A stretch of 64,000 nt of DNA from Thermoleophilaceae bacterium (GTDB taxonomy: Bacteria; Actinomycetota; Thermoleophilia; Solirubrobacterales; Thermoleophilaceae), in assembly GCA_040901445.1 (NCBI GenBank), contig JBBDYQ010000025.1, forward strand, positions 187,925 to 251,924, written 5' to 3'. A program made the position numbers and the translations under genes. Of this stretch, positions 45,538-55,955 are shown piece after piece. The first letter of the stretch is position 1. Every line of letters begins with the position of its first letter. The notes under the pieces were generated by a model. The model ran no database searches, was not told the DNA's origin, and saw only the letters and a list, made by a program, of their open reading frames with translations.

Positions 45538-45809
45538 AGCGATGAAACCCCCCTGCCGCGCGACCCCGCGCGATTCGTACCTTGGGCCAATCGAGGCGCG
45601 CGGCAACCCCCTGCCCGCACCGCGGCGCGACTCTAGACGGCGGGCAAGGGCTGGTTACGGACCGATGACAAGTCTCGTACGAATGTCACACCCCGGTGAC
45701 CCCGATCGGTTGTCCCTCGGGTGCCGGGGGTGATGACGACGCGCATGCAGGGGGCACACGTGGGTCGCTCGAGGCGCCGGTGAGCTGCCGCCCGCAAAGC
45801 AGACGCCAT
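45538..45809. other. Intergenic region upstream of the surface-protein operon
   Basis: 272 bp. Contains the leader of the minus-strand operon (GGGGGG at about 45545-45552 as ribosome site) and a loose dyad TGACA-N13-TGTCA (45666-45670, 45684-45688). No gene seen. Confidence 0.4.
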
Positions 45810-45845
45810 GGGAACAGCCCCGGCCGCACTGGCCGGGCTGTTCCC
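45810..45845. terminator. Strong stem-loop downstream of the Doc gene
   Basis: GGGAACAGCCCCGGCC (45810-45825), loop GCACT, then GGCCGGGCTGTTCCC (45831-45845), a 15-bp stem with one bulged C. It lies just after the Doc stop (45849) on the minus strand; the T run (CTTT) is on the plus-strand side. Confidence 0.7.
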
Positions 45846-45848
45846 CTT

Positions 45849-46244
45849 TCAGGACAGGTCGGTCCTTTCGTTGACCCACACCACGAACGCCTCCTCCGTG
45901 ATCTCGCGCGCCGCGAGCCGCTCGATCATGCCCGCGGTCTCCGCCTGGCCGTCCGCCGGGTGGGAGAACGTGCCACCGTTGCGCTCGATGAACTCGACCA
46001 TCGACACGTAGGCGACGCGCTTGTTCCCGTCGGGGAGCGGGTGGTTGCGGATGATCCGCGAGCAGAGGATCGCGGCCTTCGTGGCCACGCCCTCATAGAA
46101 CTCGACCTCGCCGAACCCGGCGAACGGCGCGGCGAGCGCCGATTCCGCCTGGCTGATCTTCGTGATCCGCGCGACCTGCTCGGCCGGAACGCCCAGGGCG
46201 TACTCGGCGATGAGCAGGAGGTCGGCTAGTTCAATTGACCGCAT
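45849..46244 (-). CDS. doc: Fic/Doc-family toxin
   Basis: 131 residues, the normal Doc length. The catalytic loop reads HPLPDGNKRVAY, matching HxFx(D/E)GNKR except that the aromatic position is Leu. Doc kinases phosphorylate EF-Tu; Fic proteins AMPylate targets. With the Asp-Gly in the loop this is intermediate, so the exact modification cannot be told. ATG 46244 faces the RHH gene across a nested operator; a Phd-type antitoxin upstream in the same direction is lacking. Confidence 0.88.
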   Translation of the reverse strand: MRSIELADLLLIAEYALGVPAEQVARITKISQAESALAAPFAGFGEVEFYEGVATKAAILCSRIIRNHPLPDGNKRVAYVSMVEFIERNGGTFSHPADGQAETAGMIERLAAREITEEAFVVWVNERTDLS

Positions 46245-46246
46245 GG

Positions 46247-46295
46247 TTGCACGGTATCACGATACCTTGACACCGTGCAACAGCGATGCTAGGTT
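46247..46295. promoter_or_regulatory. Nested operator and promoter between doc and the RHH gene
   Basis: Outer arms TTGCACGGT (46247-46255) and ACCGTGCAA (46272-46280) enclose inner arms GGTATC (46253-46258) and GATACC (46261-46266). The plus-strand promoter TTGACA (46267-46272), 17-bp spacer, TAGGTT (46290-46295) overlaps the right arm. A protein bound here would repress both divergent genes, fitting autoregulation of a toxin-antitoxin unit. Confidence 0.8.
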
Positions 46296-46334
46296 CATAG
46301 CAAGCAACTACCACCGACGCTAGGAGGAGGACCG

Positions 46335-46544
46335 ATGGCCAAGGCAATGACGCTGCGGCTGCCGGACGACAAGGCGGCCGAGCTCGAGGCGATCGCCCGT
46401 GCCGACGAGATGCCCATCTCCGAGGCTGTGCGCAGCGCCATCGAGCACCACATCGAGTCGCGCCGGGCCGACAAGGACTTCCAGGCTCGGCTCGCCAGCC
46501 TGATCGAGCGGGACAAGGAGATCCTCGAGCGACTGGCGCGATAG
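46335..46544 (+). CDS. Ribbon-helix-helix protein, probable antitoxin
   Basis: 69 residues, an Arc/MetJ-like RHH: the DNA-binding strand MTLRLPDDKAAELEAIARADEMPISEAVRSAI, then an extended charged helix (ESRRADKDFQARLASLIERDKEILERLAR) suitable for wrapping a partner toxin. AGGAGGAGG precedes ATG 46335. It is divergent from doc and ends before a clear terminator. Antitoxin role is inferred from proximity and the shared operator. Confidence 0.8.
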   Translation: MAKAMTLRLPDDKAAELEAIARADEMPISEAVRSAIEHHIESRRADKDFQARLASLIERDKEILERLAR

Positions 46545-46580
46545 CCACACACCGGCACCACCGCAACATCACCATCATCG

Positions 46581-46613
46581 CGACGCCCCCGACCTAACCC
46601 GTCGGGGGCGTCG
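46581..46613 (+). terminator. Intrinsic terminator of the RHH gene
   Basis: Perfect 13-bp stem CGACGCCCCCGAC / GTCGGGGGCGTCG with a 7-nt loop CTAACCC, followed by CCGTTTCC. 37 bp after the RHH stop. Confidence 0.8.
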
Positions 46614-46722
46614 CCGTTTCCGGCCTCAACTTCAAGCGGCCGACGCCGATGATCATCAGCGGGCGACTCGAAACCTCCCCGCCTGGCGCGCACACCGGCG
46701 CGCACGACCCCCAAGAACGAGA

Positions 46723-46746
46723 GAATCCCGCTCATGGAGCGGGTTC
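46723..46746. terminator. Displaced original terminator of tRNA-Glu
   Basis: GAATCCCGCTC-atg-GAGCGGGTTC hairpin just outside attL. An equivalent hairpin follows the intact tRNA-Glu at 55853-55876, as expected if the element split the tRNA from its own downstream hairpin and supplied a new one. Confidence 0.65.
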
Positions 46747-46772
46747 CGCAAGTACCGCCACGGGGATTCGAA
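46739..46772. repeat. attL (34-bp core)
   Basis: Identical to 55869-55902; begins GCGGGTTCCGCAAGTACCGC and ends GGGGATTCGAA, where the last part is the antisense of the T loop and acceptor 3' side of tRNA-Glu. To the right the sequence departs from tRNA (TGCCGCG), so this is the end carrying the cut-off tRNA 3' fragment. Confidence 0.92.
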
Positions 46773-46819
46773 TGCCGCGCGGCGGTTGCGGCGCTTTGCC
46801 GCTGTTCGCGTTCTCCCCG

Positions 46820-48211
46820 CTAATCGAGCGTTTCCACGATTTCGGCGCCCGCCACGTTTGCGGCTGTTTCCGGACGTTCTGTTGACCTGGCGTTGACCCT
46901 GCCGTTGTCGGTCGCCACGGTGCCGAATGCCTCATGGACTCGCGCTAGATCGTGGTCGTGACCACGATCTAGGCGCTGGCCCCGGAGCGGCTCGAGCGGG
47001 TCGCCGAGGTCGGCGTCGAGCAGGTGGACGTAGGTGTCGAGCGTGAAGCTCGGCGAGTGGTGGCCGAGCCACCGCTGCACCGCGACGACGCTCCGCCCGG
47101 CGGCGAACATGCGCGACGCGACCGTGTGCCTGAACGTGTGGAAGCCCGCCCACTCGACGCCCGCCTCCGAGCACGCCGGCGCGAGCACGCGTTGGTGCAG
47201 GTGGTGGGTGTCATAGGCCCCGCCGGCCGGGCTCTCGAACACGAGCGCGTCTGAGGCCGTCCCTAGCGCCCTCAGACGGTCGGCCAGGTCGATCGGGATG
47301 GGGAGGTCCCGACGCGCGTAGCGGGATTTGAGCGCGCCTATGACCATCCCCTCGCCGGTGCGGCGCACCGCGCGCTGGCGGACCCGCACGTACGGCCGGT
47401 CGCCGTCGAGCGCCAGGTGGCGGCCCTCGAACGCGATCAGCTCCGAGCGACGGACGCCCGTCGCGGCGAGCAGCTCGAACATGACCCGATGCCCGGGGTG
47501 CGCGAGCGCGACAACGAGCTCCATCGTCTCGACCGTCTCGCCGTCGTCCTCGAAGCGGGGGAACGGCCGCGGCGCGTCGTCGTCGTCCTCGACGCGCGGC
47601 CGGTGCGGCAGCGCCGCCCCCAGGGCCGGGTTGTGCGGGATCAGGCCCTCGCGCCGGGCGGTCGCCAGGCACGCCGTGAGCGGCGCCAGCGCGTTCCTGA
47701 CGCTCTTGTCGGACAGCGTGCCGCCCTTCCCGTTCGGTTGCTTCACGAGCCACCCGATGAGGTCGGCCACGTCGCGCGGCGCGACGTCGGAGAGCCTTAC
47801 GCCCTCCTCGAAGTGGCGCAGCGCGTAGCGGTTGAGCCGCGAGCGGTACTCGTGGCGCGTCTCCTCGCGGAAGCCGCGCCGGCCCGTGCCCTGGTAGCGC
47901 TCGACCCACTCGCGGGCGTACTCGTGCAGCGTCGGCTCCGCCCGCTCGCGTTCGGCGCGCTCGCGCTCGCAGTCCGGGCACTCCTCGCGCGGCTGGTCGC
48001 GGTGGAGGCCGGCGGCGTGCCCCTTCGACAGCTTCGCTCGCCGGGCGGCCGCGGCCTTACCCTCGCGGGCCTCGGCGAAGGTGCCGAACGTCTGCATCGT
48101 GGGCCGCGGGACCACGTAGGAGCACTCGCAGCGGCCGTTGCGGCCGCAGCCGCTCTTGTGCCGGCGGAAGATCCCGGGCGTCGTCGTCTTCTCGAGCTTC
48201 GTGGCCATCAC
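46820..48211 (-). CDS. int: Tyrosine recombinase (phage-type integrase)
   Basis: 463 residues. N-terminal arm-binding part with a Cys cluster (KSGCGRNGRCECSY, ECPDCERE) that may hold zinc, a SAM-like core-binding domain (TLHEYAREWVERYQ...), then the catalytic domain with R254 (ATGVRRSEL), H358-xx-R361 (HTFRHTV), H in WLGHHSP and nucleophile Y394 (TLDTYVH). Full catalytic set, so probably active. It lies 47 bp from attL, and its ATG overlaps the HhH gene's stop by 4 nt. Confidence 0.95.
   Translation of the reverse strand: MMATKLEKTTTPGIFRRHKSGCGRNGRCECSYVVPRPTMQTFGTFAEAREGKAAAARRAKLSKGHAAGLHRDQPREECPDCERERAERERAEPTLHEYAREWVERYQGTGRRGFREETRHEYRSRLNRYALRHFEEGVRLSDVAPRDVADLIGWLVKQPNGKGGTLSDKSVRNALAPLTACLATARREGLIPHNPALGAALPHRPRVEDDDDAPRPFPRFEDDGETVETMELVVALAHPGHRVMFELLAATGVRRSELIAFEGRHLALDGDRPYVRVRQRAVRRTGEGMVIGALKSRYARRDLPIPIDLADRLRALGTASDALVFESPAGGAYDTHHLHQRVLAPACSEAGVEWAGFHTFRHTVASRMFAAGRSVVAVQRWLGHHSPSFTLDTYVHLLDADLGDPLEPLRGQRLDRGHDHDLARVHEAFGTVATDNGRVNARSTERPETAANVAGAEIVETLD
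46881..46898. promoter_or_regulatory. Candidate integrase arm-type sites, left end
   Basis: Two direct GTTGACC words 11 bp apart (46881-46887, 46892-46898), matched by the same pair at the right end (55814-55832). Spacing and position inside the att-flanking DNA fit arm-type integrase sites. The pair lies within the int C-terminal codons. Confidence 0.5.
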
Positions 48212-48642
48212 GCCTCCTGCCGGTTGTGGTTGAAGTGCAGCCCGCGCGCGGCCAGGGCGGCTTCGATCGCGGCGATCGACTTGGCGCCGATGCCCGGCAC
48301 GGCCGCCGCCTCCCGGCGCGTGCGGGCCGCGGCGTCGAGCAGCGTCAGCAGCCCGGCCCGCTCCGTCCTGCCGATCGCGGTGACGGGAACCACCTTCCGG
48401 ATGGCCAGCGCGTCGCTGACCGGCCCATCGGGGCGAACGTCCATCGGGTCCCTGAGCACCGGGATCGACGCCAGCGCGACCGCGGACTCCGGGTCGGGCG
48501 GCTCCGCGTCGGGCAGCGCGGCCCGCATCGCGCTCGCGATTTTCGCGAGCGCCGGCTGCCAGATGTCGTCCTCTATCACCACGGCGGCTTGCTCGACCGC
48601 CCCCAGCACCATCTCGAACGCTTCCCGGTCGCGATCGGTCAT
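48208..48642 (-). CDS. Element protein with C-terminal helix-hairpin-helix
   Basis: 144 residues. An acidic helical N-terminal half with no motif, then VPGIGAKSIAAIEAALAARGL, a helix-hairpin-helix of the alpha-CTD/DisA type that contacts DNA backbone. Start ATG 48642 after a GGGGG run; stop overlaps the integrase start by 4 nt, so the two are made together. It may be a recombination directionality or accessory DNA-binding factor. Confidence 0.65.
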   Translation of the reverse strand: MTDRDREAFEMVLGAVEQAAVVIEDDIWQPALAKIASAMRAALPDAEPPDPESAVALASIPVLRDPMDVRPDGPVSDALAIRKVVPVTAIGRTERAGLLTLLDAAARTRREAAAVPGIGAKSIAAIEAALAARGLHFNHNRQEA

Positions 48643-48736
48643 CACGTCCCCCTCTCTGCCACGGGAGGGCGGCGCCAGTGGACCGCGAGCGGCCCTACGA
48701 TGCCTGTAGGCATAGGAGCATCTCCTCCTGTGCTCA

Positions 48737-48772
48737 GAGAGCCCGTCAGCGTCAACAGCGCGGCGGGCTCTC
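48737..48772. terminator. Stem-loop between structural and integration modules
   Basis: GAGAGCCCG (48737-48745) and CGGGCTCTC (48764-48772) around an 18-nt loop, followed on the plus side by GCTTT. It separates the lectin-fold gene from the HhH-integrase pair and could let integrase be expressed separately. 48643-48736 and 48773-48823 show no gene. Confidence 0.45.
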
Positions 48773-48823
48773 GCTTTGCCGTACACGACGACTCTACGCC
48801 CGCCACGGTGGCCGCGCAAGAGG

Positions 48824-49717
48824 TCACTCGCCCGGGAGCAGGATGCCGCGCTCAACGATGTCCACCGTGATCTTCGTGGACCGCTCGAGGCCGTGGTCGC
48901 GCTCGGCCACGCTGTCGCCGTCCCGTGCCGCCACCACGATCCGTGACGTGCCCGGGGGGAGGTACATCCGCGCGCCGCGGTAGTGCGGCGGCTTGCCCTT
49001 GTTGCCGCTCGCGTCGAGCGTGACCGTGTCGTCGTGGCGGACCTCGACGGAGCCCTCCGGCGGGATGGCGTACTTCGGGGAGTCGAGCGCTTGGGCGAAG
49101 AAGTCGGAGTAGATGTGGGTCGCGTCGTCGTCGACTGTGTCGGCGAACCCGAGCTGTCCGCTCGCGTAGTCGCCGCCCGGGGCGAGCCTGTCGTCCTGCC
49201 CAGCCTCGGAGACCAGCGCCGTTCCGGCGCCGGTCATCGTGAAGCCCCACCCCCCGCCCTCGTCGACGTCCAGCGAGAGCGCGTAGGGCACGTCCACCTC
49301 GAAGTCCACCCCCCCGCTGGCGACGATCCCCGCATCCACGCCCGCGTCGAAGAACCTGACGAGCCACGCCCGCGACGAGAAGCTGAATTGCGCTATGAGG
49401 TAGTCGAAGTTGGCCGGGGTGCCGCGGGCGAGCAGCCAAGCGACCCCGGTCGCCGCGTCGGACTCCACAGTCACCCCCACGCGGACGCCGGTCAGCGAAT
49501 CGGGCAGGACCGCGTAGCGGGTGCTCGGTGACGCCGCCGTCCGGATCGCCCCGTCGCTCTCCCTGGTGAAGTCGGGGCTACCCGGCGCGTGGATGTCGGT
49601 GTCCCACGGCCCGGTGCCCACGTCGGGGTTCGATGCGTCGAGCGCCGCGCTCGCGCCGGTGAGGTCGTCGCGGGCGTTGAGGGTGAGCGGGTGGAACTGG
49701 CCGGGTGCCCGGATCAT
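48824..49717 (-). CDS. Putative phage structural protein with lectin-like (LamG) fold
   Basis: 297 residues from ATG 49717. The N-terminal 200 residues alternate strands with W/F/Y and G/D turns (GVRVGVTVESDAATGVAWLLA, FDYLIAQFSFSSRAWLVRFF, GGGWGFTMTGAGTALVSEAG), like concanavalin/LamG domains in phage tail or decoration proteins. A C-terminal domain (VTLDASGNKGKPPHYRGARMYLPPGTSRIVVAA..) resembles the distal domain of siphovirus tail proteins. No catalytic motif. Likely the receptor-binding or capsid-surface component. Confidence 0.55.
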   Translation of the reverse strand: MIRAPGQFHPLTLNARDDLTGASAALDASNPDVGTGPWDTDIHAPGSPDFTRESDGAIRTAASPSTRYAVLPDSLTGVRVGVTVESDAATGVAWLLARGTPANFDYLIAQFSFSSRAWLVRFFDAGVDAGIVASGGVDFEVDVPYALSLDVDEGGGWGFTMTGAGTALVSEAGQDDRLAPGGDYASGQLGFADTVDDDATHIYSDFFAQALDSPKYAIPPEGSVEVRHDDTVTLDASGNKGKPPHYRGARMYLPPGTSRIVVAARDGDSVAERDHGLERSTKITVDIVERGILLPGE

Positions 49718-49721
49718 CTTC

Positions 49722-50384
49722 CTAGTCCCTTCTCTCGACAGCGATGGCGTGCTCGACCGCGATCTGCGGCGACCGGTGCCCGCCCGGAAAGACCCAGCCC
49801 GAAGCCGGATCGAAGTACTCGTAGGGCCCCTGCCCCACGATGCAGTGGACGAGCTCGCCCGGCCGGTGCGGGCGATCCCACCCACCCTCGTCCGGAGCGT
49901 CGGCCATCGCGTAGGAGTCGGCCACCGCATTGTCCGTGGAGGCACCGACACCCATCGCCTCGTGCACGGGGATGCGATGATCTACCCCGTCGGGTAGATC
50001 ATCGCCAGGACGCCTGAGCGTCTGCCCGCGTTTGAGGATCGTCCCGTCGCGTTGCCCCTCTCGGACCAGTCCGCCGATGCGGCGATCCCACCCCAGCCAC
50101 AAGCGGCGATCAGACGCCGGCGGCGGCAGCTCGTGTAGCGATTCCCACCGGAACCCCTGCGCGGTGAAGAACTCCAGCGCCTCGCCGAAGTCATCCATCG
50201 GCGGCACGTCCTCAATGGGGACTTGGGTGATCGTGGCGACGGCGGCCACGATGCAGCCATCCTCGCGGCCGTTGGACCGCTGGTAGTAGCCCGTGCGGCC
50301 ATCGGGCAGCGTGACGGTCAGTCGCGGCAGCACGGCCTCGATGCCATCAACCGTCATGCGGAGCGGCGGAGCCTCAACGCTCAC
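49722..50384 (-). CDS. Papain-like cysteine hydrolase family protein, element copy 1
   Basis: 220 residues from GTG 50384 (ATG 50357 possible). The signature EDGCIVAAVATITQVPIEDVP places C44 at a helix start; H180 (ELVHCIVGQ) and D192 (YFDPA) complete a possible Cys-His-Asp triad with H-to-D spacing of 12. The paralogue at 50559 has the same signature and spacing. Similar C39/papain-fold proteins of unknown role are common in phages. Role in capsid maturation or host interaction is speculation. Confidence 0.6.
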   Translation of the reverse strand: MSVEAPPLRMTVDGIEAVLPRLTVTLPDGRTGYYQRSNGREDGCIVAAVATITQVPIEDVPPMDDFGEALEFFTAQGFRWESLHELPPPASDRRLWLGWDRRIGGLVREGQRDGTILKRGQTLRRPGDDLPDGVDHRIPVHEAMGVGASTDNAVADSYAMADAPDEGGWDRPHRPGELVHCIVGQGPYEYFDPASGWVFPGGHRSPQIAVEHAIAVERRD

Positions 50385-50553
50385 GGCGCTCCAGGCCGCG
50401 CACGCCACGCGGCGCCCAGGGAGCCCGATCGGCGCGGCCGGCCCCCTCCGGCCCGTCCTGCGGCCCGTCCTGCGGCGCGCGCTTCGGCTCGACTGCGAAG
50501 TGGACGCGCCCAGGGAGCCCCTCCTTCTTGCGAAAAGCTTTACCAGCACCCAT
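50374..50553 (-). CDS. Small basic/acidic element protein (59 aa)
   Basis: Begins MGAGKAFRKKEGLPGRVHFAVEP, then a low-complexity PQDGPQDGPEGAGRAD stretch and an Arg-rich end. It overlaps the next gene start by 11 nt and starts 5 bp after the upstream stop, the tight packing typical of phage genes; otherwise unsupported. Confidence 0.45.
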   Translation of the reverse strand: MGAGKAFRKKEGLPGRVHFAVEPKRAPQDGPQDGPEGAGRADRAPWAPRGVRGLERRER

Positions 50554-50558
50554 TTGCT

Positions 50559-51254
50559 CTACACCTCTCTCTCGTCGTCGTTGTCGCGCTCGACGCTGAT
50601 GCCGTAGGCGATGTCGCTTTCGTTCCACTGCCGCACCCGGATGCGGACGTCCCCGACGGTGGGCGGCTTCACCGAGATGGCCGGGTCGAAGTACACCCGG
50701 TCCCAGGCCATCACCAGGCAGTGATCGAGGAAGTTGGAGCCCGCGCCCGAGCGGGCCGCCGCGGCCGCCGGGATGAAGTCAGCCTGCGCGTCCATCTGCT
50801 CCTGGTCGACCTCGACGACGCCGATCCATCGCTGGCAGTCGAACACCGCGTGAGCCGTCGGGCCCCAGCCGCCCGGCTCGGGCAGGTCCCGGTGGACGCC
50901 GAACCGGAGGCCTCGCTTGCGTAGAAACAGCTCGAGCCGCGCCCACGATTCGTCGTTGATTGCCTCCGGGTCGTCGCCGGCCGTCAGGCGAGCGTCGAGG
51001 CGAACGTCGGGCAGCTGCTCCAGCGGCACCTGCAGCACCGTGGCGAGCGCCACCCGGAAGCAGTCGTCCCGACGATCGGGGTGCATGCAATAGAGCAGCT
51101 CGCTGTCGCCGGAGGCTCGCGCGACCGGAGCCTTCCGCCCGAACGCCAACCACGGGCAACTGCCGCCGGTGGTGAGCAGGTCCCGGTCCACCTCAAGCTC
51201 GCGCACCACCCGCGCGCCGAGCACCGTCTCGCCCTTCCCGCGCTTCCTGGCCAT
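50559..51254 (-). CDS. Papain-like cysteine hydrolase family protein, element copy 2
   Basis: 231 residues. ATG 51254 shares one base with the HNH stop (TGATG). Signature DDCFRVALATVLQVPLEQLP puts C65 at the helix start; H178 (NFLDHCLVMAW) and D190 (YFDPA) complete the putative triad, again 12 apart. It shares the pattern C-x3-A-x-A-T-x2-Q-V-P-x-E-x2-P with the copy at 49722 but little else, so the duplication is old. N-terminal ARKRGKGETVLGARVV is basic. Confidence 0.62.
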   Translation of the reverse strand: MARKRGKGETVLGARVVRELEVDRDLLTTGGSCPWLAFGRKAPVARASGDSELLYCMHPDRRDDCFRVALATVLQVPLEQLPDVRLDARLTAGDDPEAINDESWARLELFLRKRGLRFGVHRDLPEPGGWGPTAHAVFDCQRWIGVVEVDQEQMDAQADFIPAAAAARSGAGSNFLDHCLVMAWDRVYFDPAISVKPPTVGDVRIRVRQWNESDIAYGISVERDNDDEREV

Positions 51255-51655
51255 CAGGGGGCCTTTCGGTCGGGTTCTGGGACGCTCAGGAATCCCCAAA
51301 CCCGTAGACACCGGGAAACGCTAGGCCGAAGGTCGTCACGGCGATCTGCGTTTCGGGGTCTCCCCCACCCCGGGGTGCCCGTGTGCGCGCTGGTCATCGG
51401 TGCGAGCCCGGGGTGTTGGCCGCGTGGCCGCTTGCGCGGCGGCCGGCGCGCGGTGATCGCGGAGTGGTGTGACGTGCATAGCGCTTGCAGGTTGGTCGGG
51501 TCGTAGCCGCGTGGGCCGGCTGGGCCGAGGCCGTCGAGGTGGTGCACCTGCTGGCTCGGCTCGTTGCAGCCGTTCTCCTCGCAGGTCGGGCGCTGGCGGA
51601 GGATGCGGGCGGAGAGTCGGCGCCAGCGTCGCCGGTCGTAGGGGCGGCCGGGCAT
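51254..51655 (-). CDS. Phage-type HNH endonuclease
   Basis: 133 residues from ATG 51655 (TGATG overlap with the upstream stop). HNH core: RPTCEENGCNEPSQQVHHLDG, ...YDPTNLQALCTSHHSAIT, with metal-binding Cys pairs and the catalytic His. In many siphoviruses an HNH gene next to the capsid or terminase genes is needed for packaging; here it is two genes away from the capsid gene and the terminase is missing. The C-terminal 60 residues are Pro/Arg-rich and may be disordered. Confidence 0.8.
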   Translation of the reverse strand: MPGRPYDRRRWRRLSARILRQRPTCEENGCNEPSQQVHHLDGLGPAGPRGYDPTNLQALCTSHHSAITARRPPRKRPRGQHPGLAPMTSAHTGTPGWGRPRNADRRDDLRPSVSRCLRVWGFLSVPEPDRKAP

Positions 51656-51963
51656 CAGGCTTCTGTCTCCTGCTCGGGGTGCCAGTCGCCGGTGTCGGGG
51701 TCGCGCATGACGCTGCCGTGGTGGCGGGCGAGGTCGAGCCCGGCGCCAACTTGCGGGTGGTGCTCGATGAGGCAGTGAAGGCACCACGTGTAGTAGTCGT
51801 CGTCTGTGGCGTCGTCGCCGTGGTCGGGCGCGTCGCTCATGAGCACGGCGTAGCCGGAGTCGTGCGGGAGGTCGGACCCCCCCGGGGGGTCATCGTGTAG
51901 GACGGCGACGACGGGCGGCGTGGTGCCGACGACGACGGCGACCTGGTGGCCATGCTCGGTCAC
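51655..51963 (-). CDS. Hypothetical element protein with Cys/His cluster (102 aa)
   Basis: GTG start. An acidic middle (DAPDHGDDATDDDYYTW) leads to CLHCLIEHHPQVGAGLDLARHH, a possible zinc site, and a short polar tail. The N-terminal part (HQVAVVVGTTPPVVAVLHDDPP) may form a small sheet. No family recognised; it precedes and is coupled to the HNH gene. Confidence 0.55.
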   Translation of the reverse strand: MTEHGHQVAVVVGTTPPVVAVLHDDPPGGSDLPHDSGYAVLMSDAPDHGDDATDDDYYTWCLHCLIEHHPQVGAGLDLARHHGSVMRDPDTGDWHPEQETEA

Positions 51964-51986
51964 GCCGTGCCCCCTGGTCCTCGGCG

Positions 51987-52024
51987 GCCCGCCGCGCAGG
52001 GAGAGAAAGGCCCTGCGGGCGGGC
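51987..52024. terminator. Stem-loop after the capsid gene
   Basis: GCCCGCCGCGCAGGG (51987-52001) and CCCTGCGGGCGGGC (52011-52024) form a 14-bp stem with one bulge and a 9-nt loop. No strong T run. It lies 115 bp downstream of the capsid stop, where highly expressed capsid mRNA would be expected to end or attenuate. The rest of 51964-52139 has no gene. Confidence 0.6.
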
Positions 52025-52139
52025 GACTGCCGCGCACTACTAAAACGCGGGCCGAGGCTCGGAGGCCCGCCGCGCGCTCAAGGCGATGACGCACGACGGG
52101 CACTGGCGTGGTCATGTGCACGCCTCCGAGGTTCATGGG

Positions 52140-53000
52140 CTAGGCGACCGCCGTGTCGAGCTTCACGATCCGGTCGCCGTCGACCAGTTCCGCGCCGCCG
52201 AACGTGTTGACCGCGATCACGTCGGACAGCACGCTCGCGTCGAAGTCCTGGAGGACTCGGAGCGCGATGCCCTGGACCGCCTGCGCCCGGGCGCTGGCGG
52301 CGCCGCTCGGGACCGCCGGCGCCAGCGTGGCGAAGGCCAGCGCGGAGCGGTGGTAGACCGCGGCCTCGCCGTCGGTGAGCGCCGAGCTCTCGACGACCTG
52401 CAGCCCGTAGATCGAGCCGAGCGTGGCGTTGCGCAGCGCGTCCGGGGACCCGGACTCGTTGACCTTGACGAACGTGTCCACCTTGAACAGGCGGCTCGCG
52501 ATCTGTGGGCTGACCGCCAGGTAGCGGCCGGCGGCGGGCACGTCGTTGTCCACCAGCGTCTCGCGGGCGGCGAGGATCACGTCCTTGGTGTCCTCGGGAT
52601 CCTCGGCGAGCGCGAACGAGCTGGTCGCCGCCAGGCCGTTGATGACCGCGGCGAGGCGGTCCTCGCCGGCCGCTGCGACGGCGGCGATCATCGGCGCGAG
52701 CACCTGGTTGGCGAAGTCGCGCACGTCGAGCGTGAGCTCTTCATCGGTGATCTTGACCGCCGAGTACCAGTGTTCGAGGACCACCGCGATCTCCGTCTCG
52801 TCGAGGGAGTCGAACGAGATGGGATCGCCGCCGACCACCTGCTGGTTGGCGGTGAGCCGCTGAGGCACGCGAACGATCGCGGTGCCGCCGGAGCCGTGGT
52901 AGTCGGTGCCGGGGACTCGGAGCGCGGTCTGTGGCAGCACGAGCATGCGTGCGAGCAGCTCGACCGCGAGGCTGACGATGTCACGGGTGACGAGGGCCAT
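52140..53000 (-). CDS. Major capsid protein (P22 coat-like)
   Basis: 286 residues. MALVTRDIVSLAVELLARMLVLPQT, then TAIVRVPQRLTANQQ, the SAVKITDEELTLDVRDFANQVLAPM block, AVSPQIASRLFK and GLQVVESS are the features I associate with P22-coat/HK97-fold capsid proteins of actinophages and Streptomyces prophages. AAGGAAG lies 6 nt before ATG 53000. Full length for this subgroup, no frameshift. It follows a scaffold-like gene, the normal order. Confidence 0.8.
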   Translation of the reverse strand: MALVTRDIVSLAVELLARMLVLPQTALRVPGTDYHGSGGTAIVRVPQRLTANQQVVGGDPISFDSLDETEIAVVLEHWYSAVKITDEELTLDVRDFANQVLAPMIAAVAAAGEDRLAAVINGLAATSSFALAEDPEDTKDVILAARETLVDNDVPAAGRYLAVSPQIASRLFKVDTFVKVNESGSPDALRNATLGSIYGLQVVESSALTDGEAAVYHRSALAFATLAPAVPSGAASARAQAVQGIALRVLQDFDASVLSDVIAVNTFGGAELVDGDRIVKLDTAVA

Positions 53001-53003
53001 GGG

Positions 53004-53123
53004 TTACTTCCTTTCGATGGCAGAGCCTCGGCTGTCGCCGAAGCGCGTGTTCAACTCGACTCGCGGATCTCCCGCGGGGCTGCCATCGCGGCCGTGCCCT
53101 GGTGCTACCGCCGCGGCCAGCAT
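53004..53123 (-). CDS. Possible 39-aa ORF just upstream of the capsid gene
   Basis: ATG 53123 to TAA 53004, reading MLAAAVAPGHGRDGSPAGD and ending SRGSAIERK, overlapping the capsid ribosome site. It might be a leader or head-decoration peptide, or chance. The 174-bp gap otherwise holds no gene. Confidence 0.25.
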   Translation of the reverse strand: MLAAAVAPGHGRDGSPAGDPRVELNTRFGDSRGSAIERK

Positions 53124-53174
53124 CGCGCCGACCGGGCACCTCTCAGTGTATGGGGCGAAGCGGCGGATCTCCCG

Positions 53175-53594
53175 TCACCACCGCTTGAGCACGTCGTCAG
53201 CCACCGCGCCGAGATCCTGCGGCTCGGCGCTCGACACAGCGCCCGGCTTGAGGCGCTCCTTCGGCCGCGTGCGGCGGCTCTCACTGGCCTCTTCGGCGGG
53301 CTTGAACGCCTCCGTGAGCGCGTCGGCACTGGCGGCCAGCTCCTCCTCGGTGTCGCCGGTCAGGAACCCAGCCTGCTGGTCGCTCAGGTTCCTCTCTGCG
53401 GCCACGGCGCGGACGCGCTCGGCTCGCTCGAGCTCGTCGGCGCGCTGGCGTGCCTCGCGCGCCTCGCGTTCGGCGCGTGCCCGGGCGTCGCGCTCGGCTT
53501 TCAGCGCCTTCGCGGCGCCGTCGCCCTCGGGCTTGCCCTCCTGCTGCTCGGGCTTGCCCTCCTGCTCGGGGTTGGTGTTCTCGGGATCGGTCAT
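53175..53594 (-). CDS. Putative scaffolding protein
   Basis: 139 residues. Acidic, Gln/Glu/Pro-rich N terminus (NTNPEQEGKPEQQEGKPEGD), a coiled coil of Ala/Arg/Glu heptads (ALKAERDARARAEREAREAR), then a short helical domain (RNLSDQQAGFLTGDTEEELAAS) and a basic, conserved-looking end. This composition and its position just before the capsid gene are those of phage scaffolds that copurify with procapsids. Start ATG 53594, 6 bp after the previous stop. Confidence 0.65.
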   Translation of the reverse strand: MTDPENTNPEQEGKPEQQEGKPEGDGAAKALKAERDARARAEREAREARQRADELERAERVRAVAAERNLSDQQAGFLTGDTEEELAASADALTEAFKPAEEASESRRTRPKERLKPGAVSSAEPQDLGAVADDVLKRW

Positions 53595-53599
53595 TTGGA

Positions 53600-53998
53600 T
53601 CAGTTCTCCTGCGGGTCGATGACGTCGGGGTAGTTGTCCAGCAGCTCGCCCAGGAGCTCGTTCGGGTCCTGCTCCAGGGACAGCAGCAGGATCGACGGGA
53701 GCACCGCGAGCTGCTCGACCAGCGCGTCGAGGTTCGCGTCGTTCAGGATCGCGGCCATCTGCTCGCCGTCGCGCTTGTGGGCGGCGATGGCGAGCCGGAT
53801 CGCGGCACGCTGCGCGTCCGCCTTCTGCTTCTGGGTCCATTCGTGCACTACGTCCTCCTCGTGTTGGGGTGGGTCTAGCTTGGCGGTGCGTTCGCGCCGG
53901 CCGCAGCGGAGACAGCGCGGCGGCCCGTGGACGTCCTCCACTAGGAACGGGACGGGGCACCAGCACGGCGCGGCGATCGTCGGCGCGGGGTCGTTCAT
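53600..53998 (-). CDS. Element protein: zinc-ribbon N terminus plus helical domain (132 aa)
   Basis: Begins MNDPAPTIAAPCWCPVPFLV, then CLRCGRRE, giving a CxC..CxxC zinc ribbon, followed by long helices (TQKQKADAQRAAIRLAIAAHKRDGEQMAAIL, LLLSLEQDPNELLGELLDNYPDV). ATG 53998 overlaps the upstream stop by 4 nt. The C-terminal part looks like a helical interaction module. No family recognised. Confidence 0.6.
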   Translation of the reverse strand: MNDPAPTIAAPCWCPVPFLVEDVHGPPRCLRCGRRERTAKLDPPQHEEDVVHEWTQKQKADAQRAAIRLAIAAHKRDGEQMAAILNDANLDALVEQLAVLPSILLLSLEQDPNELLGELLDNYPDVIDPQEN

Positions 53999-54177
53999 GC
54001 GGCCCTCCGGGGGCCGTAGCGGCGGATCTCGGCGGCGACGGCCTCGAGCCTCGCGGCGTGGCGGTGGCAGACCCAGCGAGCCTCGAGCGCGGGCTCCTGG
54101 CAGCCTCCGCCGCGGTACGTACAGCTCGTGCCCGGCTGCGGCCACGAGGGGCGCTCCTGGGCGGCGCGGCGGCTCAC
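53995..54177 (-). CDS. Small zinc-finger-like element protein (60 aa)
   Basis: CTYRGGGCQEPALEARWVCHRH holds Cys-x7-Cys-x9-CHRH, a plausible zinc site, and an Arg-rich helical end. ATGA overlaps at both ends with neighbouring genes make it a real, translationally coupled gene. Confidence 0.65.
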   Translation of the reverse strand: MSRRAAQERPSWPQPGTSCTYRGGGCQEPALEARWVCHRHAARLEAVAAEIRRYGPRRAA

Positions 54178-55022
54178 GCGGCGTCTTCCTCAGTGCCGAA
54201 GCGTTTGTCCTCGCAGGACCGGCAGAACGCGCCCTTCCCAGCGGGGATCTCGGTCCCGCAGTCGCGGCACTCGAGCTTGGAGATGCCGGCGAGGTCGCGG
54301 AGCGCCTTGGCGCGGCGCTCCCGCACGTCCCGGTGGTCCGGGCCGCGCTTGGCCACGGTGCGGCACGCGATCGCGAACGCGGCGCCAGCGTCGTCCTCTT
54401 TCCAGTCGTCCTTGAGTCCCCAGCGGACGGCGAGCGCCGCTGCCTCCCTCGCCAGCTGGTCGCGCTCGGCGGGGGCCAGGCCGGCGGCGTGGCTCTCGAC
54501 GGCGAGAACGACCTGGTTTCGAATGTTGGTTTCGTTGCCGGTGAAGCGCTCGCACCTGCGCAGCGTCGCGAGGACTGCCGTCATTGATTCCTCAGAAAGC
54601 CCCCCGCCGCCGCCCGCGCGAGCGGTGGACGGTTCTCTGACGATTAAGGACGGTTCGGGTGTCACCCGTGACAGGGTCTCCGTCTCAGATTGAGACGGTC
54701 CGGCCGCGTCGATGACACTGTGTCGATCTGAGACGGTCGCATCTTGAGAGGGTGTGAGGGCCTCGAGACGGACGCGGTAGCGGTTGCAGCCGTTGCGCGC
54801 CGACTTGTACGACACCTCGAGCTCGCCGAGCTCCTTCAGCCGATCGACGCAGCGATGCACGGTCGAGAGCGAGACGCCGGCGCGCTCCGCGATCGTCTCG
54901 ACGGACGGCCACGCCTCGGCGCCCTCGTGGTTCGCACACTCGGCGATGACCACGAGCACCATCCGTGCCGAGCCGCGGGCGCGAGAATGGCGGAGAACGG
55001 CCTCTACGGCGGTGAAGCTCAC
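54174..55022 (-). CDS. Replication-type helix-turn-helix protein with C-terminal zinc ribbon
   Basis: 282 residues from GTG 55022 (GTGA overlap with the excisionase-like stop). A winged HTH (AWPSVETIAERAGVSLSTVHRCVDRLKELG) of the HTH_36/DnaD-like initiator type, a disordered Ser/Thr/Pro linker (about 105-155), a helical domain, and a zinc ribbon (LECRDCGTEIPAGKGAFCRSC). This architecture is common for the primosome or initiator protein of actinobacterial integrative elements. It could instead be a transcription factor. Confidence 0.72.
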   Translation of the reverse strand: MSFTAVEAVLRHSRARGSARMVLVVIAECANHEGAEAWPSVETIAERAGVSLSTVHRCVDRLKELGELEVSYKSARNGCNRYRVRLEALTPSQDATVSDRHSVIDAAGPSQSETETLSRVTPEPSLIVREPSTARAGGGGGLSEESMTAVLATLRRCERFTGNETNIRNQVVLAVESHAAGLAPAERDQLAREAAALAVRWGLKDDWKEDDAGAAFAIACRTVAKRGPDHRDVRERRAKALRDLAGISKLECRDCGTEIPAGKGAFCRSCEDKRFGTEEDAA

Positions 55023-55303
55023 GGCCGCAGCCCCCCGCCGGTGCGGACCCACGCGTCGAGCTCGCTCTTACGGCCGACGAGTGCGGATCCGTCGCGGTGC
55101 ACGGGGATGCGCGGCGGGTTGCAGCTCGCGAGCGCATATACGCGACTCCGGGGCGCGTCGAGGTACTCGGCGATCTTCTCTGCCCCGCGGAGCCACCCGT
55201 CGTCGGCGGGCGCCTGGCGGTCGGCGAGCCTCTCGGCGACGCGCTCGGCGAGGACGTCGATCAGCTCGTCGGGGAGCGCGAGCGAAAGCGGCCCGGCGCT
55301 CAT
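55019..55303 (-). CDS. Excisionase-like MerR-type winged-helix protein
   Basis: 94 residues. After an N-terminal helix (LPDELIDVLAERVAERLADRQ) comes a helix-turn-helix of the excisionase type: LRGAEKIAEYLDAPRSRVYALAS, wing PRIPVHRDGSALVGRKSELDAWVR. Such proteins bend DNA at att sites and set integration versus excision. It is at the opposite end of the element from the integrase gene, and starts the main minus-strand transcription unit after the small 55300 gene. Confidence 0.75.
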   Translation of the reverse strand: MSAGPLSLALPDELIDVLAERVAERLADRQAPADDGWLRGAEKIAEYLDAPRSRVYALASCNPPRIPVHRDGSALVGRKSELDAWVRTGGGLRP

Positions 55304-55563
55304 GGCCGCACCCCGCAGAGCGCGGCCGGTCTAGAGCCTGGTGGGTCGGGGTCGCCGCGCGACGCGCTCGATCGTCGCGTCGCGGCGTGGCGCTCGCGCC
55401 GGCCACGTGGCCGGCTGCGCCCCTGCGCGCCACACGTCGGCCCGGTCGTGTCGGAGCGACTCGCCTGCTGCGAGGCGCGTAACGCGGGGCCCATTGGGCC
55501 GCCCATCACCTGGCGGTGGAAGCGCTGGAGCTCGGCGGCCTGCCGAAGTAGTGCGGCGTTCAC
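55300..55563 (-). CDS. Hypothetical Arg-rich element protein (87 aa)
   Basis: MNAALLRQAAELQRFHRQVM gives a clear helix; the rest is Arg/Ser/Pro-rich and likely disordered. ATGA overlap with the excisionase-like start. No family recognised; the low-complexity end weakens the call. Confidence 0.45.
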   Translation of the reverse strand: MNAALLRQAAELQRFHRQVMGGPMGPALRASQQASRSDTTGPTCGAQGRSRPRGRRERHAATRRSSASRGDPDPPGSRPAALCGVRP

Positions 55564-55868
55564 ATGTCCCGCCTGCGCTGGGGCTGGCGCGTGGCGCTAG
55601 CCGGGCGTGTGTGCTGCGTCATCGTCTCGTCTCCTGGCGGTGGTGGCTGCCTGCGCGCTGCGCGTCTCGCCGGGTGGCAGGTGCCGCTGCGGCCCGAGAG
55701 CCGCAGCGGCGAAGCCATCACGTGCAGAGACGATCAGCACGTTTGGATAGTCGCCTTCCTGTCGGACAGAAAGGGTCAGCCCGATTCCGCCAAGGGCGGC
55801 CTCGATGCGGCGTGTTGACCTGGGCGTTGACCCGGTTGCCCCGGAACGACGAGAACCCGCATTGGAAT
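55564..55868. other. Right-end non-coding zone with possible small ORF
   Basis: 305 bp between the last element gene and attR. A protein-like minus-strand frame (IEAALGGIGLTLSVRQEGDY, then PNVLIVSARDG) covers about 55650-55795 but has no normal start. It also holds the right arm-type sites. It would contain the promoter for the element's minus-strand unit; I see no convincing -10/-35. Confidence 0.4.
55814..55832. promoter_or_regulatory. Candidate integrase arm-type sites, right end
   Basis: GTTGACC at 55814-55820 and CGTTGACC at 55825-55832, the same pair in the same orientation as at 46881-46898, with TGGG instead of TGG between them. Confidence 0.5.
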
Positions 55869-55876
55869 GCGGGTTC
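55853..55876 (-). terminator. Hairpin after tRNA-Glu
   Basis: GAACCCGCATT and AATGCGGGTTC form a perfect 11-bp dyad (10 bp plus a 4-nt loop in practice), 7 nt beyond the tRNA 3' end on the minus strand. It replaces the displaced hairpin at 46723-46746. Confidence 0.7.
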
Positions 55877-55902
55877 CGCAAGTACCGCCACGGGGATTCG
55901 AA
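55869..55902. repeat. attR (34-bp core)
   Basis: Identical to 46739-46772. Positions 55883-55902 are the 3' end of the intact tRNA-Glu, so integration left the tRNA functional. Confidence 0.92.
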
Positions 55903-55955
55903 CCCCGGTTTCCGCCGTGAGAGGGCGGCGTCCTAGTCCCCTAGACGATGGCGGC
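55883..55955 (-). tRNA. tRNA-Glu(CTC), integration target
   Basis: 73 nt on the minus strand. Acceptor GCCGCCA/TGGCGGT (one G-U), anticodon stem CCGCC/GGCGG with loop CTCTCAC (anticodon CTC), T arm CCGGG-TTCGAAT-CCCCG region, discriminator A. Its 3' end is part of attR. Confidence 0.94.

Follow-up and report, generated by a model that had tools for sequence, protein, structure and literature searches.

Type II toxin–antitoxin modules usually carry the antitoxin gene first in one operon, so that the toxin is not made alone. MetJ, a repressor with the RHH fold, uses tandem 8-bp met boxes. The accessible part of PMC13379313 gives only the sequence of a single MetJ box; in that of PMC8251345, CopG is known to occupy repeated sites as RHH dimers placed side by side, and the same is proposed for ParD2. 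The Doc toxin of phage P1 phosphorylates EF-Tu, according to the available portions of PMC10440598 and PMC4803016, and in another system a carrier fused to a Phd-C tail is enough to counteract the corresponding Doc (PMC10440598, same portion). The Fic/Doc partners named in the excerpted text of PMC2701414 are AbrB, Xre, YhfG, and PHD, with no RHH protein paired with Doc; nor does such a pairing appear in the excerpts of PMC6504116, PMC10440598, PMC4803016, PMC7157771, and PMC7718023. The titles and abstract openings of the matches listed, mostly from outside the subscription literature, include no paper on a divergent RHH–Doc pair. Such pairs may well appear already in the output of genome annotation pipelines.

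The locus described here lies in a 64-kb stretch of DNA, the whole of which is called the window. Two genes, doc and an RHH gene, are transcribed away from each other, and the intergene between them contains repeats. Both open reading frames, their orientation, the dyad, and the promoter hexamers lie where the original prediction placed them. The coding features are as follows.

45849-46244, minus strand: doc, Fic/Doc family toxin, 131 aa (Pfam Fic, TIGR01550, AF2 model, Foldseek)
46017-46043, minus strand: Doc active-site motif HPLPDGNKR, residues 68-76, intact (alignment of 35 sequences)
46335-46544, plus strand: RHH (CopG-type) protein, 69 aa, proposed antitoxin and repressor (RHH_1, AF2, Foldseek)
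46470-46541, plus strand: RHH C-terminal helix from D46, proposed Doc-binding tail (conservation, helix 47-68, tail resemblance)

Judging from sequence, we regard the two genes, with a probability of roughly 0.7, as a type II toxin–antitoxin pair whose genes are on two separate transcripts and are repressed together through one shared operator. The pair is probably a functional one of a real and known kind. The RHH–Doc pairing itself is normal in the Doc family, and the new element is apparently the rare divergent layout with its shared phased operator, which seems to be inherited.

The assignment of the minus-strand gene to the Doc family is borne out by Pfam Fic (37.3 bits, cut-off 24), by TIGR01550 DOC_P1 (40 bits, cut-off 38.65), and by the fold of P1 Doc. 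The protein also matches PHROG 577, "Doc-like toxin", and the Doc profile together with the HxxxxGNKR motif, present as HPLPDGNKR, places it among the Doc/death-on-curing toxins. Across 35 aligned sequences, the window among them, G73 and N74 never vary, and H68, K75, and R76 are conserved in at least 90%. The F position of HxFx, which we take to be the Doc motif, is occupied by L. A profile built from 35 sequences, again with that of the window, finds the chains 9vzc (3.3e-13) and P1 Doc 3k33 (1.7e-4) among solved structures. The AlphaFold (AF2) model has a pLDDT of 97.1, and its top five Foldseek matches are all P1 Doc chains with a probability of 1.00, TM of 0.69-0.70, and E values of 4.8e-3 to 1.3e-2, none of which is below 0.001; the identity to P1 Doc chains is 18-20%. 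Three other Fic-domain places are found in the host genome, which contains no second match of the window Doc at E up to 10. In the defence library, Doc has only partial matches, to longer candidate-defence proteins (PDC-S23 and others), and the RHH protein has none.

The partner is an RHH protein, as predicted, with an RHH_1 score of 24.9 bits against a cut-off of 20.5. Its AF2 model (pLDDT 95.8) consists of helices 11-23, 28-45, and 47-68, and the best Foldseek matches are the CopA(SO) antitoxin, ParD, and CopG, every one with E >0.1. The sequence has no match among solved structures; its profile finds designed repeat proteins first, followed weakly by VapB26 and CopG-family chains. The Phd/YefM antitoxin of Phd-Doc modules is replaced here by a protein with RHH_1 and with no Phd Pfam match at E up to 0.1.

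We compared the locus with its relatives, which together with the window make 121 distinct loci: 97 tandem (RHH gene upstream), 7 divergent, and 17 without RHH. This count drops six duplicate loci, loci without a Doc match, and identical Doc proteins; the raw tally, duplicates kept, of the window and 143 loci is 113 tandem, 10 divergent, 19 without RHH nearby, and 2 without Doc. An RHH protein thus lies beside Doc in 104/121 distinct loci, giving the conserved pairing of a toxin with a small DNA-binding protein that is typical of type II modules. The idea that an RHH partner for Doc is uncommon fails on this number, and it is the orientation that is unusual: only 7 of the 104 RHH–Doc loci are divergent. 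In the window and the six others, the two genes do not share one operon, a usual but not strictly required trait of type II modules. The divergent loci are the window, L003 (a viral contig), L114, L116 (= L022, L140), L120, L123, and L144. Tandem RHH-doc loci occur in Actinomycetota, Chloroflexota, and others. Doc matches were found in 42/296 genomes of the phylum, 26/399 of the class, and 21/232 of the order, and RHH matches in 6/61 relatives and 3/31 genomes of the family, all genome counts including the window's own. Among the 21 genomes of the order with a Doc relative, six have the divergent layout. Viral contigs contributed 3 loci and GTDB genomes the best 80 of 181; a Doc relative is also present in 3 plasmid records and 28 phage records, the latter all at <60% identity. 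One locus (L071) contains two successive RHH-doc copies, and the fetched loci L054 and L092 each include a further RHH gene that differs from the first and runs the opposite way.

The regulatory features of the intergene and the flanks are listed below.

46247-46280, no strand: whole symmetric candidate operator TTGCAC-GGTATC-AC-GATACC-TT-GACACC-GTGCAA, symmetric about box 2
46253-46258, no strand: operator box 1, GGTATC, overlapping the candidate doc -10 (sequence)
46261-46266, no strand: operator box 2, GATACC, center of the outer dyad (sequence, inverted-repeat scan)
46269-46274, no strand: operator box 3, GACACC, overlapping the RHH -35 (sequence)
46251-46280, minus strand: candidate doc promoter TTGCAC-18-TACCGT, -10 six nt before the doc ATG, leaderless geometry (sequence)
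46267-46295, plus strand: candidate RHH promoter TTGACA-17-TAGGTT (TTGACA 46267-46272, TAGGTT 46290-46295)
46322-46331, plus strand: Shine-Dalgarno-like AGGAGGAGGA of the RHH gene (sequence)
46580-46614, plus strand: G+C-rich hairpin directly 3' of the RHH gene, possible terminator without a long T run (z -5.81)
45810-45845, minus strand: G+C-rich hairpin directly 3' of doc, possible terminator without a long T run (z -3.29 on the minus strand, -5.23 on the plus strand)

The repeats had been described as a nested, two-layer dyad with the inner repeat inside the outer one. Both repeats are present, the outer one (46246-46259 / 46268-46281) being 93% complementary, but they are not concentric. 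The two-layer reading was dropped for a single array of three boxes, since the center of the outer dyad (46263.5) falls on box 2 and relatives show the same 8-bp pitch. Boxes 1 and 2 make up the inner dyad, and the symmetry of the full array gives the outer one. Taken by itself, the outer dyad is not unusual: the 64-kb window contains 52 dyads with 9-bp arms and a span up to 34. The inner repeat is beyond chance: the window has nine GRTAYC words, and the one pair of them at distance 8 is boxes 1 and 2. In the whole genome of 3,537,634 bases (3.54 Mb), GRTAYC-N2-GRTAYC occurs at one place, the operator, and the reversed control pattern at none.

The same words recur in front of related RHH genes. 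GATACC or GGTATC lies within 120 nt upstream of the RHH gene in 41/86 de-duplicated loci (86 of 97 upstreams kept) against 4.6 expected from dinucleotide shuffles, and GRTAYC upstream of RHH in 58/82 de-duplicated tandem loci against 6.5 in mononucleotide shuffles. The 82-locus set leaves out tandem loci with RHH E >1e-20, without a start found, with an upstream region <100 nt or containing N, or >80% alike. Pairs of relaxed boxes in these 82 upstreams number 59 at distance 8, 21 at 16, and 6 at 24, against about one each in shuffles. The seven divergent intergenes contain 9 box pairs at 8, 5 at 16, and 4 at 24 (shuffles ~0.1; 0.08 at 8), and a pair at distance 8 is present in 5/7 of the loci, the two without being L123 and L144.

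The positions of the boxes relative to the promoters should be noted. Box 3 overlaps the RHH -35, in agreement with the claim that the operator overlaps the RHH promoter, and the candidate doc -10 TACCGT overlaps box 1. The RHH promoter had been called consensus-like. It is present and is the sole occurrence of TTGACA-17-TANNNT in the 64-kb window, but TAGGTT shares 3/6 positions with TATAAT, and a strict sigma-70 scan of 45700-46720 finds no promoter, just as a terminator scan of the same interval finds no terminator. TAGGTT fits the looser actinobacterial TANNNT, which according to the accessible part of PMC3898074 precedes 73% of the primary starts of M. tuberculosis as their -10 motif. The same part reports that 32/37 toxin–antitoxin pairs with a primary start are leaderless in that organism.

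TANNNT at 6 nt before a start is the geometry of a putative leaderless mRNA. Of the 82 tandem loci, 48 show TANNNT at exactly this distance from the RHH start, and none of the other spacings from 0 to 59 occurs in more than 6. By start type, 54 of the 82 are leaderless-like (5-7 nt) without an SD, 22 have an SD only, 6 have neither, and none has both. In the divergent loci the RHH gene is SD-led in 6/7, doc lacks an SD in 7/7 (none was found before the window doc), and TANNNT lies 6-7 nt upstream of doc in 3/7, the window included. A simple transfer of the leaderless start from RHH to doc is made less likely by the tandem loci nearer the divergent group: in these 32, a set hand-picked from the tree, 21 RHH genes are SD-led, 6 are leaderless-like, and 5 are of neither type. 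Of the remaining 50 RHH genes, 48 are leaderless-like.

We also inspected the C-terminal helix of the RHH protein, in which D46, F49, R52, and L67 are invariant (25 sequences, window included). Where Doc relatives lack an RHH gene, a different small protein is usually encoded upstream and ends in a similar tail; the names given to these partners (AbrB-like, HTH, Phd-like, no recognised domain) are a reading of their sequences, not a family search. No small upstream partner was found at L099, cut by a contig end, and at L105. When other Doc-antitoxin tails were scored with a matrix of RHH tails, 10/13 beat shuffles at p<0.05 (uncorrected), or 9/12 (uncorrected) with a distant RHH protein left out. 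The P1 Phd tail is barely above shuffles (p 0.0495), two AbrB-like tails and one Phd-like tail are not, and a PDB search with the RHH tail profile retrieves no Phd up to an E value of 10. The RHH helix thus appears to resemble other Doc-antitoxin tails moderately. The evidence for a Doc-binding tail consists of the invariant residues, the similar tails on swapped partners, and the tail scoring. In eight loci of the window's class (L053, L061, L074, L126, L127, L130, L131, and L146), a short upstream partner without an RHH match has a tail of the same kind as the RHH tail (..FDRLAR, ..FERLGR), and six of these loci form one group with support of 100 in the Doc tree. A genome of the window's family contains an orphan RHH gene with a Doc-antitoxin tail (L142:1502-1711) and no doc within the fetched locus.

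From these features the following mechanism can be proposed. RHH dimers would dock side by side on the boxes with an 8-bp pitch and obstruct the doc -10 at box 1 and the RHH -35 at box 3, judging from their positions, so that one occupied operator would shut both promoters. The C-terminal helix may bind and block Doc like the Phd tail in phage P1, as conservation, moderate tail resemblance, and synteny suggest. If the antitoxin falls, both promoters would open; the RHH mRNA has a strong SD, and the doc mRNA, without an SD, is probably leaderless. Free Doc would stop translation by analogy with P1 Doc.

The divergent layout looks inherited, because the seven divergent loci group in the careful tree built from Doc and RHH together (66 thinned loci). 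There they lie on one side of a branch, corresponding to one change; the branch has ultrafast bootstrap of 88 and SH-aLRT of 79.9 and is not starred. The quick Doc+RHH tree, less resolved, requires two changes against 6.7 in shuffles, with 0/500 as low. Both trees leave out RHH proteins with E >1e-19, Docs with E >1e-25, and non-divergent Docs >80% alike. The Doc-only tree (100 rows, with five of the then six known divergent loci, L120 being too short) is also less resolved than the careful one; the single change it gives for the divergent layout is relative to the group without RHH only and does not enter the argument. A clade constraint on only five of the seven divergent loci is not rejected (p-AU 0.111). 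These results favor, rather than establish, one origin of the divergent layout.

The locus adjoins an integrative element, as the original prediction stated. The element, of ~9.2 kb (46739-55907), is integrated at the 3' end of tRNA-Glu (55882-55955, minus strand) between att-like repeats (46739-46777 and 55869-55907) that are 95% alike, with an integrase adjoining the left repeat. The pair lies outside it, because the left repeat is beyond the RHH gene, and the idea that the pair is cargo of the element is unsupported. By PHROGs the element encodes an integrase, an HNH endonuclease, a major head protein, a scaffolding protein, and a replication initiator; no tail, portal, or large-terminase family was matched among the eight element proteins searched. 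It is possibly a phage satellite that carries a capsid, or else a remnant.

Three other explanations of the pair were weighed against these observations. The split layout may mark a module in retirement, in which tight coupling is lost, Doc nears inactivity, and selection keeps the RHH repressor. The state of the divergent docs gives this idea some ground: the catalytic His is missing from L114 and L123, the match to the window Doc stops at residue 94 in L120 and at residue 98 in L144, and around the aligned start of L116 there is no ATG, with just a TTG and a GTG 13-14 codons upstream. With the other five damaged, only the window and L003 copies look whole. The orphan RHH gene of L142 points the same way. 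Against this, the window Doc is full length with its motif kept and a confident Doc fold, L003 likewise looks whole, and split or broken docs are found in tandem loci too (L014, L032, L038, and L070). The HxxxxGNKR motif is intact in 94/97 tandem and 5/7 divergent distinct loci, a share biased in the viral and GTDB scans because these were seeded by short Doc peptides; in the loci first found in whole-protein genome searches it is intact in 19/20 tandem and 4/6 divergent, numbers too small to link the divergent layout with doc decay. We consider retirement unlikely, though a serious alternative.

The RHH protein might instead only regulate doc and itself, with Doc a non-toxic Fic-fold enzyme in another role. 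Many Fic-fold proteins are not toxins, and the operator pattern would fit any autoregulated divergent pair. The GNKR-type Doc signature, the TIGR01550 score above cut-off, and the swapping of partners with similar tails beside the same Doc family make this quite improbable. That the two genes are unrelated neighbors joined by the adjoining integration event is very improbable: the element does begin only ~195 bp right of the RHH gene, but this explanation is already contradicted by synteny, as RHH and Doc are paired in 104 distinct loci, 7 of them divergent, with the operator conserved. The toxin–antitoxin reading is the preferred one. In its favor are the RHH–Doc synteny, the 8-bp array, the genome-unique site, the folds, the Doc motif, the tail residues, the similar tails, and the one tree group; against it are the lack of Phd in the tail-profile search, the 3/13 tails that do not beat shuffles, the 2/7 divergent loci without a box pair at distance 8, the damaged docs, and the empty promoter and terminator scans.

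A bolder proposal, which we hold to be doubtful, is that divergent RHH–Doc pairs form a distinct type II class with separate mRNAs and opposite translation modes, in which conditions favoring leaderless translation would raise the toxin:antitoxin ratio directly, without any need to degrade the antitoxin by proteolysis. Leaderless mRNAs become more abundant in M. tuberculosis during starvation (PMC3898074, accessible part). The divergent layout would allow toxin and antitoxin to be made separately, and would offer a natural system in which their promoters and translation modes are separately tunable under one operator. Genes that are parted yet kept together in several lineages test how far toxin–antitoxin coupling is needed. 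The array further suggests a concrete box code for an RHH antitoxin family, GRTAYC with an 8-bp pitch.

The locus resembles Phd-Doc of phage P1 in the Doc fold, in the GNKR/ANKR-type motif of both toxins, in a small DNA-binding antitoxin with a C-terminal tail (predicted in the window), and in toxin-modulated repression as its likely logic. It differs in that the antitoxin is RHH, not Phd, and in that the genes are divergent, whereas those of P1 are antitoxin-first on one strand, an order seen in L149. The 97 distinct tandem RHH-doc loci share homologous Doc and RHH proteins and the GRTAYC operator with 8-bp pitch, but have both genes on one strand with the RHH start leaderless-like or SD-led, whereas doc in the window starts on its own over the operator and lacks an SD. 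With the CopG/MetJ/ParD repressors the window protein shares the RHH fold and presumably the side-by-side docking of dimers at repeated sites, which is known for CopG and has been suggested for ParD2 (PMC8251345, accessible part), and it differs from them in its Doc-antitoxin-like tail and its box sequence GRTAYC. PanA-Phd-C/Doc (NetFlax) likewise carries a Doc-neutralising tail on an unrelated antitoxin domain (PMC10440598, available portion), the tail in the window being predicted; the N-terminal domain is Panacea there and RHH in the window, where the genes are divergent.
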